NCBI GenBank assembly: GCA_903642235.1
Contig: CAHJWL010000010.1
Coordinates: forward strand, 1-64,000
Direction: 5' to 3'
DNA length: 64,000 nucleotides
Source of the DNA: Acidobacteriaceae bacterium
GTDB lineage: Bacteria > Acidobacteriota > Terriglobia > Terriglobales > Acidobacteriaceae
In this document: positions 1 through 7,074 of the stretch, in pieces
Position numbering within the stretch: the stretch's first letter is position 1
How the letters are laid out: the number at the start of each line of letters is the position of its first letter
Notes under the pieces: model-generated
What the model was told of the DNA's origin: nothing
Seen by the model: only the letters and a program-made list of their open reading frames with translations
Database searches by the model: none
Translations under genes and position numbers: made by a program

Positions 1-965
1 GCACCCGCCGCCCCTCCTTTGGTTGTCATCCCGTAGGGATCTGCTTCTCCCTCCGCATCCCCCGCACCCGACAGCCCCCCTTTGGTTGTCATCCCGTAGG
101 GATCTGCTTCTCCCTCCGCATCCCCCGCACTCGCCGCCGTACCCGCCGCATCCGGGAACACCTCACTCACCTCAAGGAACTCACCGCCCGCCACCCTCTT
201 CTTTCTCGGCTTCTTCGCCGCCACCACCTTCGGCGGCTTCACCGTAAACCGCTCCACCGCCTCCTCCGGCGATTCCACCGGGCTCGCCAGCATGAATCCC
301 AGCGGATGAAACAGCCGCATCCGCGCCGCATCCAGCGTCCCCGCAAACGCCCGCCGCACCGCCCCCGCCAGGTCCGCTTCGAGCATCACCGCATGCCGTA
401 CCCCCACCACCTCCGCGCCGGCTGCCACCGCTATCGCCTCCTCCACCAGCGATTCCTTCACCCCGATCCGCATATCGCCCAGCATCAGCTTCAGCAGGTA
501 CTTCGCCTCAAGCGCGGTCGCGCGCCCCAGCAGCTCCTGTACCAGCCCCGCCCGGATCGCCGTCGTCTTCGCCGTTGCCATGCCGTCGAACGCCGCCTCG
601 ACCTCCACCAGCGTCACCACCGCCGTCTTCGCCGCGTCCGTCGCCGCCAGCAGATCGAACGCCGCGGCCCCCATATCGCCATGCCGCCGGTACGCCGCTG
701 TCATCTGCGCGTCCGTCGCCCCACTCACCGCCAGCACCGCCCTGCTCAGCAGCGCGCCGCCCGCATTCAGCTTGCGCGGATCCGCCTCCGGGAACGGCAG
801 CCCCGCCAGATACAGCGCAAACCGCCCCGCATCCGCAAGCGCAGCCTCGCCCCGGTCGCCGGCAGTCCGGCCAATTGCCCCCGCAATCGCCGCCCGCTTC
901 GCCAGCCGGCTCGCCGTCCCGGCCATCTCCTCAGCCAGCGCCGCCACAGCAGAAAAATATGCCAT
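1..965 (-). CDS. ATP-dependent DNA ligase, N-terminal part (runs off the left edge)
   Basis: An open frame starts at ATG 965 (GAGAGG lies about 8 nt upstream) and continues without a stop to base 1, at least 321 codons. The N-terminal 190 or so residues match the DNA-binding domain of archaeal-type ATP-dependent ligases, with the signature EAKYLLKLMLGDMRIG followed by VKESLVEEAIA. The sequence FHPLGFMLASPVESPEE then marks the beginning of the adenylation domain; the catalytic lysine motif lies beyond the window. The enzyme would seal DNA nicks with ATP, as a repair ligase additional to the NAD-dependent LigA. Between the start of the adenylation domain and the expected lysine motif sits a basic linker, then two copies of a repeat-encoded peptide, GDAEGEADPYGMTTKGG. 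The plus strand is rich in shadow frames here; the minus frame is chosen on the family match. Confidence 0.85.
   Translation of the reverse strand, partial: MAYFSAVAALAEEMAGTASRLAKRAAIAGAIGRTAGDRGEAALADAGRFALYLAGLPFPEADPRKLNAGGALLSRAVLAVSGATDAQMTAAYRRHGDMGAAAFDLLAATDAAKTAVVTLVEVEAAFDGMATAKTTAIRAGLVQELLGRATALEAKYLLKLMLGDMRIGVKESLVEEAIAVAAGAEVVGVRHAVMLEADLAGAVRRAFAGTLDAARMRLFHPLGFMLASPVESPEEAVERFTVKPPKVVAAKKPRKKRVAGGEFLEVSEVFPDAAGTAASAGDAEGEADPYGMTTKGGLSGAGDAEGEADPYGMTTKGGAAG
16..130 (+). repeat. Two tandem in-frame copies of a palindromic repeat inside the ligase gene
   Basis: Bases 16-67 and 79-130 are two near-identical 52-base copies with a 63-base period (21 codons). Each contains TCATCCCGTAGGGATCTGC, whose centre ATCCC-GTA-GGGAT is an inverted repeat. 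Relatives lie near 13.88, 16.74, 16.82 and 24.43 kb in the same orientation. On the minus strand both copies are read in the ligase frame and add 42 residues with no stop codon. Confidence 0.9.
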
Positions 966-1220
966 CCCAACCTCTCTCCGGCGGCCGCACGCAGCTGCCG
1001 TCTCCATGCGATGCGAGGGAGCCGGCGGGGTTGGACCGATCCCTTCTCCTGGTGCCCTCTCGCGCTCCCGCGTCGAATCAGTCGACATCTCCGTCCATCC
1101 GCCACCCCCTCCGCATCGGGAATGCTGCAAGCGATCCATTTCTCCATTGACAAACCTTCCGCCAGCATATGGGATGAAGGTGGAAGCGCCGTCTCTACTC
1201 TTCAGACCGCCCTTGCTACA

Positions 1221-1255
1221 ATAAAAACTGCCAAGCGGGTGGCTCCGCCTGGCAG
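1221..1255 (-). terminator. Rho-independent terminator of the small-ORF unit
   Basis: Read on the minus strand, CTGCCAGGCGG (1255-1245) pairs with CCGCTTGGCAG (1238-1228): 11 pairs including one G-U, loop of 6. It is followed directly by TTTTTA. It lies 28 bases after the stop codon of the small ORF. There is no T-run on the plus side, so it serves the minus strand only. Confidence 0.85.
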
Positions 1256-1283
1256 GGTGAGTGACACAAAGCGATGACCCCGG

Positions 1284-1394
1284 TTAAGAGATCAGCGCTG
1301 TAACGAGCTTCACCAGCACCAGAAGAACAAATTCTTCTGGAATCTCCAGCGAAACGTTGCCCCATGTAAACCGAATCGGTCCCATGGACGGCAT
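1284..1394 (-). CDS. Small protein, 36 aa, behind a structured leader
   Basis: This 37-codon ORF begins ATG CCG TCC ATG and ends TCT TAA. The sequence AAGGAGGTGAT immediately before it is an 11-base match to the complement of the 16S rRNA 3' end, an unusually strong ribosome binding site. Spacing is 2 nt to the first ATG and 11 nt to the in-frame ATG at 1385, so the second may be the true start (33 aa). The product begins MPSMGPIRFTW and has a hydrophobic C-terminal half (EEFVLLVLVKLVTALIS) that could be a short membrane helix. I do not recognise the family. Flanking promoter, leader and terminator argue that it is a real gene. It could instead be a leader peptide of a regulatory RNA. Confidence 0.6.
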   Translation of the reverse strand: MPSMGPIRFTWGNVSLEIPEEFVLLVLVKLVTALIS

Positions 1395-1499
1395 CACCTC
1401 CTTCACAGACCTCGGGGCTGCAACCCCGAGGTATTCGCTTTAGGGCGAATCTTTGTCCCTCGGTCTTGACCCCAGCGCGAGCCACGCCTGTGAAAGGTG
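1395..1499 (-). promoter_or_regulatory. Structured 5' leader that can sequester the Shine-Dalgarno site
   Basis: Three helices can be drawn on the minus-strand RNA. P1: CACCTTTCACAG (1499-1488) pairs with CTGTGAAGGAGGTG (1408-1395), 12 pairs with a two-G bulge, and it buries the Shine-Dalgarno sequence. P2: ATTCGC (1450-1445) with GCGAAT (1438-1433). P3: ACCTCGGGG (1432-1424) with CCCCGAGGT (1417-1409), nine perfect pairs. P2, P3 and the 3' strand of P1 abut with no unpaired bases between them, as in a compact junction. About 37 bases between the 5' strand of P1 and P2 are not assigned. The layout resembles a translational riboswitch, but no known class was recognised. Confidence 0.6.
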
Positions 1500-1504
1500 C
1501 CTTC

Positions 1505-1534
1505 AGTATCCAGGCCCGTAGCTGCGTCCGACAA
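1505..1534 (-). promoter_or_regulatory. Putative sigma-70 promoter for the leader and small ORF
   Basis: TTGTCG (1534-1529), an 18-base spacer and GATACT (1510-1505) are read on the minus strand. Transcription would begin near 1498-1500, exactly at the 5' strand of helix P1. The match to consensus is moderate; the position relative to the leader is the main support. Confidence 0.4.
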
Positions 1535-2409: not shown

Positions 2410-4992
2410 CTAGAAGGAGTAGCGAATCATCGCGGTGACCGATCTGGGTGTCAGGAAATGTGTCCCCGAGAATGTGGAGAGGAAGTTATACAGGCCATCA
2501 TTCTTCGTGAGATTCACGACGTCCACTTGAACGCCGATCTGCTGACGCTCGTGGTGGTACAGATCGTCTTCTCCCAGCGATAGATCAAAGACGCTTCTCG
2601 GAACAATGCGCGCCGGATTCTTGTCATCGTTCTCCGTTCCTGCCGCGGGTATCCGCACGCGTGTCGTTTCCAGGCTGGCCAGAGGGCATGCATGAAGCGG
2701 CTGCGCCGCAGTCGCAAAGGTGGAGCCGCAATGTAGACCTAACTGAGCCTGCTCGTCTCCCGTCAGGCGAAGCACTGCGCTGAAGTCTGGCGTGGCCACA
2801 GAAACCAGTCCTCCGTCGTACCTCCAGGCGAAGCCTGCCCAGGGCCCCTTGCGGCCAACCTGATAGCGGCCGTACGTGTTGGTGGCCAGCCCCTCATCGT
2901 GATCCGGCCGGGCGACAGTGCTGTAGGGCGCGCTGAAGCTCACGCCACCGGTCTCCGGCCCAAACAGTCGCGAGCGGACATGGCTCGCCGTGACATACCC
3001 CGTCACTCCATGGGTCGGTGCGAGAGCGAGGCGGAGCAGACCGCCGTCGATCTTGGACTTGCGAAACTGCGTCGGAAACGTCAGCGGGCTGTTGAGGAGA
3101 ACATCAAAATCATAGGCCCCATACGTAAACTTCCAGAAGTACTCGCCGCTGACGGTAACAAGCTTCGAAAGCTGCGACTCTGCCCCAACGTTGAACTGGT
3201 TGCGGAGTCCCGTGCCGAGCGGCGAGGACTCCGCTGCACCCAGCGCCGCAGCTGTAGAGCCGGGACCCGCCGAACTCGCGACGATCAGGTTCTCGTTATA
3301 CGGCGTAAAAAACACACGCGAGTACGCACCCCGGAAAACGGTGTGAAGGGGCGCCGGGGAGTAGGCCAGTCCGACGCGCGGCTGCACCCCGCTTGAGCTG
3401 GTGATCCCGTTGTAAGCATCAAAGCGGAGACCGAGATTCGCCGTAAAATCACCAAGCTTTACGCTGTCCTGACCGAAAAGCGCCTCCTGCTTGATGTCTG
3501 TCGCGCCGTCGAAGCTGAAGAGTCTGCCTCCGCGAGTAAGATCGATGGAAACAAGCTTTGGCAGGAAGTCGGGATTCCGCACTAGGCCCGCGCCGGCACA
3601 CTCGGCCGCTGTAAGCAGCGCAGCATCAGCAGATGGACTTCCATCCACATCAAGGCAGGGGCTGTTGTACGCGGGGTCAGTCAGACCGGTCGCAAAGCGT
3701 TCAGCCAGAAAGGTGTGCTTCCACTCCACACCTGCCGTAACGTTGTGTCTTCCGTGCACAGAGGTGTACTCAGAGCGTGTCCCCGCGTTCGTCAGGCGGC
3801 GAGACTGTGCAAGAGTCGCCGGAGTGTCCGCCAGGCTATCGGCGGATGGCCGGTATCGAACCTTGTCCTGCCGGACCCACAGATTCGTTCGAAAGAAGGA
3901 CCACGCATTCAAGGTGTGGAGAACCGACGGAGCGATGTTGAAGCTCTGAATTGTTTGCCGTTGGTTCTGGCCGAGCGCCTGCTGATCGTAGGTGTTGGGC
4001 GTCTGAAACCACGAATGGCTGAGACTGCCGTTGAGCTGCACGGAGGTCTGTCCGTTAACGCGGAAATCCAGTCGCTCGATAAGGTTCTCTGCATTGCCAT
4101 TGGCATGGAGCGCAACCAGTTCCGGCGCATCAAGAAAACGCTCGCTGTTGAGCGCATTGAGAGCTGTGAAGGTTCCAAAGCGGCTCGTACCATAGCCAAG
4201 ATGCGCGCTGGCCTGGCTCGTCGCAAAGCCGCCACGGCTCAGAGAGAACTCGCCTGTGGGCCGTTTCTGCTCCAGTCCGGAGCGTGTCTGCGCCACAATC
4301 ACCATGCTGGTCTTATCGCCGACATCAGCCTGCGGCGCGCCATCACGCACCTCGAGCGATTGCAGAGCGTTCAGAGACACCTGCGATGAAAAGGTCCGGC
4401 TCTGCTGATCGGTGATGGGCTGCCCGTCAAGAACAAACGACGCTTCCGCGTGATCTCCCAGCGGGTGAAACGAGCCATTCGAATCAGCCGAGACACCAGG
4501 CGTCGTGCTCGTGATGAGCGAGCTCAGCGGGGAACTGATGCTCATGCTGGGAATGCGCTGCATCTCTTCGAGGGTCACGGCAACACGGGCAGGCGCCGCT
4601 GGATCGAGCGTGTCGGCAGCCGCGGTCACGTCCACGCTGTTGTCCGTACCGCGCACTGTTAAGTGCAATGCAAGGCGGAGCGGTGTGCCGCTATAAGTGA
4701 CGTCCACGGACGCAGCGGCGAAGCCGTCGGCCTGCGCTTTGACGCGGTACTCACCAAACGCGAGCCCGGGAAACGAGAACCGGCCTTCTTCGTCTGTAAA
4801 GACCGTGCGTACCGATCGCGTCTGTTTAGAAACCAGCGTTACCGTTGCCTTTGGGAGCACGCCGCCAGTGCTCTCTGTCACCGCTCCGGAGACTTCAACA
4901 TCGCTTCCGCTTTGCGCGGCAGCCGCTGCGCCCTGCAGCAAACCACAGAGAACCATCCACAGCAGAACCGAAGAAAATCGAATTGCAGGCAT
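2410..4992 (-). CDS. TonB-dependent receptor with CarboxypepD-regulatory-like N-terminus
   Basis: An outer-membrane receptor of 860 residues if it starts at ATG 4992. A GTG at 5004 is in frame but lies inside the operator, whereas AGGTGAGG stands correctly before 4992. The product has a signal peptide (ending near GAAAAAQS), an Ig-like regulatory domain (VEVSGAVTESTGGVLPKATVTL), a plug domain (about residues 120-240) and a long beta-barrel that ends in phenylalanine (MIRYSF), as outer-membrane proteins do. It is divergent from the DtxR/MntR-type regulator with two palindromes between them, so I infer metal-repressed uptake of iron or manganese chelates; the ligand is not shown by the sequence. 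Confidence 0.85.
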   Translation of the reverse strand: MPAIRFSSVLLWMVLCGLLQGAAAAAQSGSDVEVSGAVTESTGGVLPKATVTLVSKQTRSVRTVFTDEEGRFSFPGLAFGEYRVKAQADGFAAASVDVTYSGTPLRLALHLTVRGTDNSVDVTAAADTLDPAAPARVAVTLEEMQRIPSMSISSPLSSLITSTTPGVSADSNGSFHPLGDHAEASFVLDGQPITDQQSRTFSSQVSLNALQSLEVRDGAPQADVGDKTSMVIVAQTRSGLEQKRPTGEFSLSRGGFATSQASAHLGYGTSRFGTFTALNALNSERFLDAPELVALHANGNAENLIERLDFRVNGQTSVQLNGSLSHSWFQTPNTYDQQALGQNQRQTIQSFNIAPSVLHTLNAWSFFRTNLWVRQDKVRYRPSADSLADTPATLAQSRRLTNAGTRSEYTSVHGRHNVTAGVEWKHTFLAERFATGLTDPAYNSPCLDVDGSPSADAALLTAAECAGAGLVRNPDFLPKLVSIDLTRGGRLFSFDGATDIKQEALFGQDSVKLGDFTANLGLRFDAYNGITSSSGVQPRVGLAYSPAPLHTVFRGAYSRVFFTPYNENLIVASSAGPGSTAAALGAAESSPLGTGLRNQFNVGAESQLSKLVTVSGEYFWKFTYGAYDFDVLLNSPLTFPTQFRKSKIDGGLLRLALAPTHGVTGYVTASHVRSRLFGPETGGVSFSAPYSTVARPDHDEGLATNTYGRYQVGRKGPWAGFAWRYDGGLVSVATPDFSAVLRLTGDEQAQLGLHCGSTFATAAQPLHACPLASLETTRVRIPAAGTENDDKNPARIVPRSVFDLSLGEDDLYHHERQQIGVQVDVVNLTKNDGLYNFLSTFSGTHFLTPRSVTAMIRYSF

Positions 4993-5032
4993 GTTTAGCC
5001 TCACCTAAACTTCTGTTTTAGGCTAGGCTAAA
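4993..5032. promoter_or_regulatory. Two DtxR/MntR-type operator palindromes
   Basis: Box 1 (4993-5010) is GTTTAGCCTCACCTAAAC, an inverted repeat GTTTAG/CTAAAC just upstream of the receptor ATG. Box 2 (5016-5032) is TTTTAGGCTAGGCTAAA, with TTAGGCTAGGCTAA very close to the TTAGG-TTAGCCTAA style of DtxR/IdeR boxes. They lie back to back in the gap between the receptor and the regulator, so one protein could repress both genes. Confidence 0.75.
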
Positions 5033-5551: not shown

Positions 5552-6000
5552 TGAGCAGAGTCACACCCTCGCGTGCCGCGCGACAAGTGCGGAAGCAGCC
5601 GGTGCTCTCACCACGTCCCACGCCCTTCTACAACGGCGTGCCTCCGTGCTCTGGCGCGATCCACTCCTTCCGCCTTGTACTCTTCTCCTGTACTCCTCTC
5701 CCTGGGGCCGCGTCGTCCGAACCATGTCTCCAGCGTCGCTTCAACTACTTAAGATCCGGACCTAAGTCACGCCGATCGAAGATTTTGCGCTTAAAACCAG
5801 TGAGGGTGCGGGCTTCGCATCTTGACGCCCGCTGTACCATCTAAGAAGTATGCGTGCCTTCTCCGCACAGATCGTCTCCGCCATCGTGACGCCGCCCGCG
5901 CGCCACGACTTTGCCTAGCTGCGCCCACGCCGGCATCTCTCCCCGTTCCGACATCCCGATAGACGAACCTGCACACACCTACCCGCAGGAGGAGCACCCC
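5552..6000 (+). other. Intergenic region before prfA; weak promoter only
   Basis: 449 bases without a convincing gene. The 97-codon plus frame at 5551-5844 has no recognisable family and atypical composition. TTGACG at 5822-5827 is followed 18 bases later by AAGTAT, a possible but weak promoter for prfA. The prfA ribosome binding site CAGGAGGAG is at the right end. Confidence 0.4.
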
Positions 6001-7074
6001 ATGTTTGACCGCCTCGCCCAGATGGACACCCGCTACGAAGACCTCGGAACGCAGCTCTCCGACCCCACCCTCGTCTCGGACCAGAAGAAGTTCCAGGCCA
6101 CCGCCAAGCAGCACCGCGATCTCGAGCCCACCGTCGAGAAGTATCGCCAGTACCGCTCCGTCCAGCAGGCCGTCGCCGACGCTAAAGCCATGCTTGCCGA
6201 GTCAGATCCCGAGATCCGCGAGATGGCCGCCGAAGAGCTCTCCACCCTCGAGCCGCGCCTCGCCGAAATTGAAGCGGAGCTCCGCGTGCTGCTTCTCCCC
6301 AAAGACCCAAACGATGACAAGAACATCGTCATTGAGCTCCGCGCCGGCACCGGCGGCGACGAGGCCTCGCTCTTCGTCGCGGAGGTCTTCCGCATGTACC
6401 TCCGCTTCGCCGAGCAGCATCGCTGGAAGGTCGAGGTCATGTCCGAGACTGCGTCCGACGTCGGCGGCCTCAAGGACGTCACCGCCATCTTCGAAGGCGA
6501 CAAGGTCTACTCGCAGATGAAGTACGAGTCAGGCGTGCACCGCGTCCAGCGCGTTCCCGCGACCGAGACCCAGGGCCGCGTCCACACCTCCGCGATTACA
6601 GTGGCGGTCCTTCCCGAGGCCGAAGAGGTCGACGTCAAGATCGAGCAGAAAGACCTCCGCATCGACACCTTCTGCTCCTCAGGGCCCGGCGGTCAGTCGG
6701 TCAACACCACCTACTCCGCTATCCGCATCACCCATCTCCCCACCCAGACCGTCGTCAGCTGCCAGGACGAGAAGTCGCAGATCAAGAATCGCGAAAAAGC
6801 CATGCGGGTCCTCCGCTCGCGCCTCTATGAGGTCGAGCAGGAGCGCCTCCACCAACTCCAGGCCTCCGCCCGCAAGGCCCAAATCGGCTCCGGCGACCGC
6901 TCCGAGAAGATCCGCACCTATAACTTCCCGCAGAACCGCCTCACCGACCACCGCATCGGCCTCACCAATCATCAGCTCGCCATGGTCATGGAGGGCCAGC
7001 TCCAACCCACCATCGACGCCCTCATCGCCTTTGATATCGCCGAAAAGATGAAGGGCGAGCCCGCCGTCGCCTGA
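6001..7074 (+). CDS. prfA: Peptide chain release factor 1
   Basis: A 357-residue class I release factor, the usual length. The start at 6001 ([16 protein letters not shown]) has CAGGAGGAG eight bases upstream; the open frame extends 30 codons further up but that part is not conserved in the family. The GGQ motif that triggers peptidyl-tRNA hydrolysis is seen in [14 protein letters not shown], and the PXT-type anticodon-mimic region lies near [10 protein letters not shown]1 reads UAA and UAG in the ribosomal A site. The next gene encodes the methyltransferase PrmC that modifies the GGQ glutamine, the standard bacterial arrangement. Confidence 0.97.

Follow-up and report, generated by a model that had tools for sequence, protein, structure and literature searches.

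A family of covarying leaders preceding small hydrophobic peptide genes in Acidobacteriaceae: a candidate type I toxin-antitoxin module

The window analysed here, the whole 64,000-nucleotide stretch from an Acidobacteriaceae bacterium, carries near its beginning a very small gene preceded by a leader that can pair with its own Shine-Dalgarno region, and this raises the question of what kind of control such a leader exerts, and over what kind of product. A preliminary description of the locus had read the arrangement as a translational riboswitch or thermometer. The structured small-gene element is real and represents one copy of a gene family. Comparison of its members leads us to a different reading, namely a putative type I toxin-antitoxin locus whose toxin gene would be controlled by a convergent antisense RNA, to which we assign a probability of roughly two in three; we infer both the toxicity of the peptide and the antisense transcript.

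The features of the copy in the window are collected in Table 1. The three-helix anatomy described earlier was correct and its coordinates were confirmed, as was the 11-base Shine-Dalgarno match. The predicted transcript of 283 bases folds far more stably than its shuffles (z = −5.1, 0 of 200 equal), and the leader with the start region alone behaves less extremely (z = −2.1, 5 of 200 equal). Within 1000-2000, three terminator-like sites were detected against 0.7 ± 0.9 in shuffled sequence; one is the strong terminator already noticed behind the gene, and another is P3 read on the plus strand. A small ORF is indeed conserved, but the 36-codon version proposed for it begins at an ATG (1394) situated inside the Shine-Dalgarno match; ATG 1385 is the likelier start because the homologues begin there. 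Rfam contains no match to the window at gathering scores, and when six loci were compared at E ≤ 1 the sole match (E 0.61) fell outside the element, in keeping with the earlier remark that no known class was recognised. A search for Acido-1 RNA found none in 21 genomes and is uninformative, since its controls also gave no match.

Table 1. Features of the element in the window, with positions in the direction of reading
Feature	Position	Strand	Basis or remark
Weak −35-like box TTGTCG, putative sense promoter	1534-1529	−	18-base spacer to −10
−10-like box GATACT, putative sense promoter, a short distance 5' of P1	1510-1505	−	Family-conserved box
P1 5' strand (anti-Shine-Dalgarno), first bases of predicted transcript	1496-1488	−	Fold and covariation
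Pseudoknot strand a, TGGGG, between P1 and P2	1474-1470	−	Covariation
P2 hairpin	1450-1433 (arms 1450-1445/1438-1433)	−	Fold
Pseudoknot strand b, CCCTA, at P2 loop	1445-1441	−	Covariation
P3 hairpin	1432-1409	−	Fold; on the + strand followed by ATTCGCTTTA
P1 3' strand, overlapping Shine-Dalgarno region	1408-1400	−	Fold and covariation
Shine-Dalgarno sequence AAGGAGGTGAT	1403-1393	−	Sequence
33-codon ORF, candidate membrane toxin peptide MGPIRFTWGNVSLEIPEEFVLLVLVKLVTALIS	1385-1284	−	Family alignment; 36 codons if ATG 1394
P4 hairpin within ORF, CCAGAAGAA-TTTG-TTCTTCTGG	1340-1319	−	Fold and synonymous shuffles
Intrinsic terminator of sense transcript, 11 pairs and T-run	1255-1222 (hairpin 1255-1228)	−	Terminator scan
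TTGACA, −35 of predicted antisense promoter, directed back into gene	1147-1152	+	Family-conserved box
Weak −10 region of predicted antisense promoter, TATGGG (spacer 15) or TGGGAT (spacer 17)	1168-1175	+	Box scan
Predicted antisense RNA over terminator, ORF, Shine-Dalgarno, P3 and P2	1182-1455	+	Start and end inferred

Within the same genus, BLAST detected the element in 3 of 60 genomes, its own included, and a search with the peptide found it in 3 of 62; the leader of one homologue, used as query against 300 genomes of the same taxonomic family, found 12. The spacing between P1 and the Shine-Dalgarno sequence is variable, so that a structural alignment including P1 was not achieved, and the covariance model built from eleven leaders (R1) therefore holds P2 and P3 only. 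This model identified 39 places, spread over 18 of the 398 genomes searched in the same taxonomic family and over 6 of 79 genera, with up to five in one genome. The matching records belong to Granulicella, Terriglobus and other Acidobacteria, from whose names we read the taxonomic family as Acidobacteriaceae. Samples of the order (377 genomes) and of the phylum (376), which themselves include this family, gave matches in 14 and 5 genomes, none outside the family, under strict filters that may miss weak members elsewhere. A second model (R2), derived from five leaders of another subgroup that had themselves first been found by R1, was searched against 329 genomes and recovered the window element at 35.4 bits (E 8e-5). 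Six new places taken from this search comprised two intact members (G031c and G000c), a copy with a broken ORF (G359c) and three non-members (G355a, G243b and G040x). One of the two intact members is the third copy in the genome of the window, whose elements thus lie on C10 (the window), C4:383767-383879 and C3:331367-331491.

For the peptide counts, the 39 places were reduced to 32 elements. The seven dropped have a lost or broken ORF (G003a, G046c, G359a, G291e), a non-conforming ORF (G317d), or are weak and devoid of a clear pseudoknot (G254a, G093a); G003a, G046c and G359a represent decayed copies of the family. Near-identical to G249a, G333a was omitted from the P1 pairing test and the neighbour-gene tally and was retained in the pseudoknot, codon, ORF-hairpin, TTGAC, −10-motif, stop-hairpin and weight-matrix counts. 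Among the decayed copies, L016 and L074 retain most of the leader without the peptide ORF, and L038 has deteriorated in both P2 and the ORF. In genome G046, a 1.46-Mb contig carries three elements whose peptides are intact, and a decayed element is located on a different contig. A pattern search of the genome collection gave 20 matches, nine of which came from other lineages (Chthoniobacter, Anaerofilum, Planctomycetota, two Acidimicrobiia, two sphingomonads, Pseudomonas asuensis and Aminicenantes); these had no R1 match at E ≤ 0.01 and were taken as chance.

The claim that the leader pairs with its own Shine-Dalgarno region is borne out by the homologues, which keep P1 through compensating changes. 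In 31 elements, the summed pairing of each 5' strand with its own 3' strand was 725, against 490 ± 19 when the 3' strands were exchanged (0 of 5000 permutations); the paired variants include CTCACAGG/CCTGTGAG, CCTCTACAGA/TCTGTAGAGG and TCTGTG/CACAGA, and G329a is an exception, its strands pairing no better than with foreign ones. P1 runs over 6-15 positions with at most one mismatch, and by prediction, from sequence and fold model, it would sequester the ribosome-binding site of the peptide mRNA. P2 and P3 form the best conserved DNA of the element; the sequence of P3 varies between elements and its hairpin is retained.

One strand of a covarying pseudoknot lies in the 37-base segment separating P1 from P2, for which a ligand-binding role had been suggested. 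The preliminary description had overlooked this pseudoknot, as well as the ORF hairpin and the opposite-strand TTGACA site discussed below. The segment usually contributes CAGGGC, or part of it, to a pairing with GCCCUG in the P2 loop. Replacements on both sides were found in G343d (UCACGGC/GCCGUGA), G329a (GUGGAG/CUCCAC), G291d and G291e (GAUCAGG/CCUGAUC), and the second copy of the window's genome (GUCACGGCA/UGCUGUGAC). Across 18 elements with variant loops, own pairing reached 268 compared with 209 ± 11 for exchanged partners (0 of 2000); in five of these loops (G223b, G223c, G031b, G254a, G093a), over half of the foreign segments match the pairing achieved by the own segment. The test left out two of the 39 places, in which P2 was not found, and used P2 strings read by hand; like those for P1, its permutation counts are not strict probabilities, as kinship between elements remains. 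Judged from these paired changes, the structure is an H-type pseudoknot beside the P1 lock. For G249a, G333a and G317c, the energy model favours a longer helix formed from the same strands, so two states of the leader are possible.

A covarying P1 and a pseudoknot, with direct pairing of the Shine-Dalgarno sequence, constitute a riboswitch-like anatomy, and the earlier reading deserves consideration on that account: a ligand or a temperature change would open P1 and switch on a small stress peptide, the boxes on the opposite strand being incidental. Several observations make this explanation improbable. The P2 loop and its partner vary in several elements with the pairing maintained, and the P1 runs would mostly be stable for a thermometer. 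Furthermore, a single kind of tiny gene follows the leader in all 32 intact places, among the 39 found, with no other gene type seen, and the copies are sparse among genomes and multiple within them. The same explanation leaves the ORF hairpin, and the opposite-strand TTGAC boxes present in 25 of 32 elements, unaccounted for.

The gene itself encodes an in-frame family peptide of 25-44 residues in 32 of the 39 places, starting from ATG in 27 and without an ATG start in 5; in the other seven, the ORF is broken, odd, weak or missing. The peptides fall into subgroups (for example, MRPVRVKWGKLRVKIPAEAILF..., MPKEPGLRLSVSASEKVILALIGL... and MAKLGNAKAQGSISITGNLLLAIV...) whose common design is a basic or polar N-terminus followed by a hydrophobic stretch towards the C-terminus. 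The best 15-residue Kyte-Doolittle mean lies between 1.57 and 3.32 in 31 of 32 peptides and is 1.19 in G066a, and the net charge is positive in 29 of 32, that of the window peptide being −1. Differences at the first, second and third codon positions number 2531, 1598 and 2823 over 4596 codon comparisons between non-independent pairs, with the second position the most conserved. By this pattern, which is the one expected for conserved hydrophobicity, the ORF is coding. No family was matched at E ≤ 1 in Pfam by nine peptides, nor in NCBIfam or PADLOC by five peptides each; a single PHROG match (E 0.15) was disregarded as insignificant.

These data also bear on the notion that the element is a non-coding structured RNA or a mobile repeat, with an ORF that is there by accident. 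That P2 and P3 surpass the rest of the DNA in conservation, and that G003a and G046c retain the leader alone, would suit it. Nevertheless, we regard it as very improbable, given the preservation of the family peptide in frame, the constraint on second codon positions and the strong Shine-Dalgarno sequence ahead of the start. Moreover, the plasmid and phage collections, queried with the DNA of one homologue, yielded no relative, and neither did viral contigs searched by one pattern.

Two further hairpins accompany the coding sequence. Compared with synonymous shuffles based on the pooled codon usage of the family, the ORF hairpin (P4) has a mean z of −1.28, negative in 29 of 32 elements and reaching p ≤ 0.05 singly in 7, with a Stouffer value of −7.2; the best hairpin begins at codons 9-15 in 26 elements and elsewhere in 6. 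Such a conserved hairpin could serve as a pairing site for an antisense RNA. The second hairpin lies within 90 bases 3' of the stop codon (mean z −4.1), and in every one of the 32 elements no more than 2 of 40 shuffles equalled it; a T-run behind it was scored by program for the copy in the window.

As to promoters, a strict sigma70 consensus scan of 1000-2000 on both strands found none, and the sense and antisense promoters therefore rest on boxes conserved across the family. In 14 of 32 elements the motif nATACT stands no more than 25 bases ahead of the leader, 11 times as TGnnATACT, compared with 0 of 32 control stretches; the −10 box of the window lacks the TGn. Of the promoter-like boxes initially proposed, the −10-like box recurs in the family; no conserved counterpart of the −35 was seen there. 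The comparison of homologues for covarying helices, small ORF, promoter and terminator that had been suggested at the outset was carried out in part, and found P1 covarying, the ORF kept, a −10-like box often present and a hairpin after the stop.

On the opposite strand, a TTGAC box directed back into the gene is present within 170 bases after the stop codon in 25 of the 32 elements and absent there in 7. Control counts, in stretches of 170 bases except one of 104, were 2 of 32 for the other strand of the same stretch, 2 and 4 of 32 for the next 170 bases, and 1 and 4 of 32 upstream. At the corresponding −10 position, GC(A/G)TC was found in 14 of the 25 elements with TTGAC, mostly as GC(A/G)TCnAAT or a near variant, and in 0 of 25 controls. 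Both intact members found later (G031c, G000c) carry TTGAC as well. Scored with a weight matrix, this site had a mean of 8.6, where control stretches averaged 5.1, 3.2 and 3.0; the score surpassed that of the element's own shuffles at 0.05 in 20 of 33 cases, in a set that included G317b in a wrong frame and a non-family ORF for G291e; the TTGAC count used corrected frames. In the window, the −35 is perfect and the −10 weak (p = 0.08 against its own shuffles). The presence of this promoter-like site argues for control by an antisense RNA rather than for a riboswitch or thermometer.

The gene upstream of the element, beyond the leader, lies on either strand (16 versus 14 by a rough heuristic), so the opposite-strand site is not simply the promoter of that gene. 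Since the heuristic gave a wrong result for the gene downstream of the element in the window, which is a DNA ligase on the minus strand, the upstream tally alone was used, and as a rough check. For the downstream gene, the same rough heuristic would indicate the opposite strand in 24 of 31 cases, a result that is wrong for the window itself.

Regarding the end of the antisense RNA, the sequence 3' of P3 on that strand is the complement of P2 and is moderately T-rich, by A/T counts that are rough owing to misparsed P3 boundaries in several rows; a classical U-tract after P3 is absent from that strand. The RNA may end at P3/P2, for which the evidence is weak.

The mRNA that P1 would lock, the tiny hydrophobic peptide it encodes and the predicted convergent antisense promoter, along with the scattered occurrence in multiple copies and the presence of copies in decay, combine into the picture of a type I toxin-antitoxin system. 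Such systems call for peptides below 60 amino acids that are hydrophobic and contain a membrane-compatible segment, as found here (25-44 amino acids, n = 32), and for a toxin mRNA with a sequestered ribosome-binding site, which is predicted here from the P1 covariation and the fold. According to this model, a short sense mRNA would start at, or just 5' of, the 5' strand of P1, and its first bases would pair with the Shine-Dalgarno region while P2, P3 and the pseudoknot form alongside, so that the newborn mRNA, whose helices are supported by covariation, would be translationally locked. Its product would be a 33-residue peptide, coding by conservation, whose hydrophobic C-terminal part could insert into the membrane. 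From the conserved boxes just past the terminator, an antisense RNA would run back on the opposite strand over the terminator, ORF and Shine-Dalgarno sequence, probably to near P3/P2, and would pair with the mRNA, perhaps first at the P4 loop, leaving it blocked or destroyed. Loss of this RNA, or opening of P1 by 5' trimming or by a switch involving the pseudoknot, would allow the peptide to be made, whereupon it could damage the membrane or halt growth. The pseudoknot might be a requirement for translation, as it is in tisB and timP, or might keep the lock shut.

The toxic action assumed in this model is precisely what a competing explanation dispenses with: the product could be a small membrane peptide with a housekeeping or signalling role, whose level the locked leader would keep low and the antisense RNA would adjust. 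The sequence features, among them the hydrophobic pattern maintained in the peptides, fit this explanation equally well, toxicity not being readable from sequence. However, divergent copies within a genome (up to five R1 matches), presence in 18 of 398 genomes and the existence of decayed copies are more in line with a selfish or addiction-like module than with a core function, and we consider the non-toxin alternative unlikely. Returning to the toxin-antitoxin reading, a more far-reaching version of it would be a multi-copy superfamily of type I modules, confined to this lineage and without a described predecessor in Acidobacteriota, in which the mRNA 5' end locks the ribosome site, the adjacent pseudoknot acts as a gate and the P3/P2 pair serves both as leader structure and as antisense terminator; this remains tentative, with prospects slightly short of even.

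Among established type I systems, bsrG/SR4, txpA/RatA and fst/RNAII of Firmicutes employ a convergent antisense RNA that overlaps the 3' region of the gene for a small hydrophobic toxin; they are not known to have a leader of the present kind. They belong to another phylum, and the nine acidobacterial peptides tested match no Pfam family. In the passages concerned with tisB/istR-1, a type I system of E. coli, the tisB mRNA has a sequestered ribosome-binding site and an H-type pseudoknot near its 5' end that is essential for translation (PMC7708055), features that resemble those of the acidobacterial element. The system differs in its standby site about 100 bases upstream and its trans-encoded antisense RNA, as outlined in part of PMC12390103; in the element, it is the 5' end that pairs with the Shine-Dalgarno sequence, and the antisense RNA, by prediction, runs convergently across the ORF. 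A further difference is that the acidobacterial peptides tested have no Pfam match. Similarly, the enterobacterial type I pair timP/timR possesses a leader that sequesters the ribosome-binding site and a covarying pseudoknot needed for translation, with mutually exclusive folds proposed in the sections dealing with it (PMC11228461). In that system a separate small RNA, TimR, disrupts the pseudoknot, and host phylum and locus layout both differ from those of the acidobacterial element.

Before a cyanobacterial case, type I systems were known solely from Proteobacteria, Firmicutes and Tenericutes, as stated in the relevant part of PMC12390103 (2025), which attributes the small number of phyla to searches starting from known loci. 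That case, msoT1/msoA1 of Microcystis, likewise lies outside the classical phyla; it is cyanobacterial and was found by a feature search (PMC12390103). Our literature search, with most subscription papers outside its coverage, brought up no description of such a locus in Acidobacteriota, and the pertinent passages of a survey of marine toxin-antitoxin genes count orphan toxins in this phylum and describe none either. If the toxin-antitoxin reading is true, type I systems would extend to Acidobacteriota through a family that covaries, occurs in multiple copies and was discovered by way of its RNA fold, and the pseudoknot of its leader would be an independent case of what is seen in tisB and timP. 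The covariance models of the element can be used for finding more members.

Several genes surround the element in the window. Just beyond the antisense promoter-like site lies the N-terminal part of an ATP-dependent DNA ligase (3-965, minus strand; DNA_ligase_A_N, E 5e-28), which runs off the contig start. On the same strand, 2410-5001 encodes a large protein with an N-terminal CarboxypepD_reg domain, which at a guess is an outer-membrane receptor. A release factor gene with PCRF and RF-1 domains occupies 5911-7071 on the plus strand, about 4.4 kb from the element, and in another genome (L072) a copy stands about 0.4 kb before an ORF that looks similar by eye, which may reflect a shared neighbourhood or chance. 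In Granulicella sapmiensis (L058), two copies of the element are found about 7 kb apart on opposite strands. The ORF between them is presumably alanine-racemase-like, a name we assign from its sequence.
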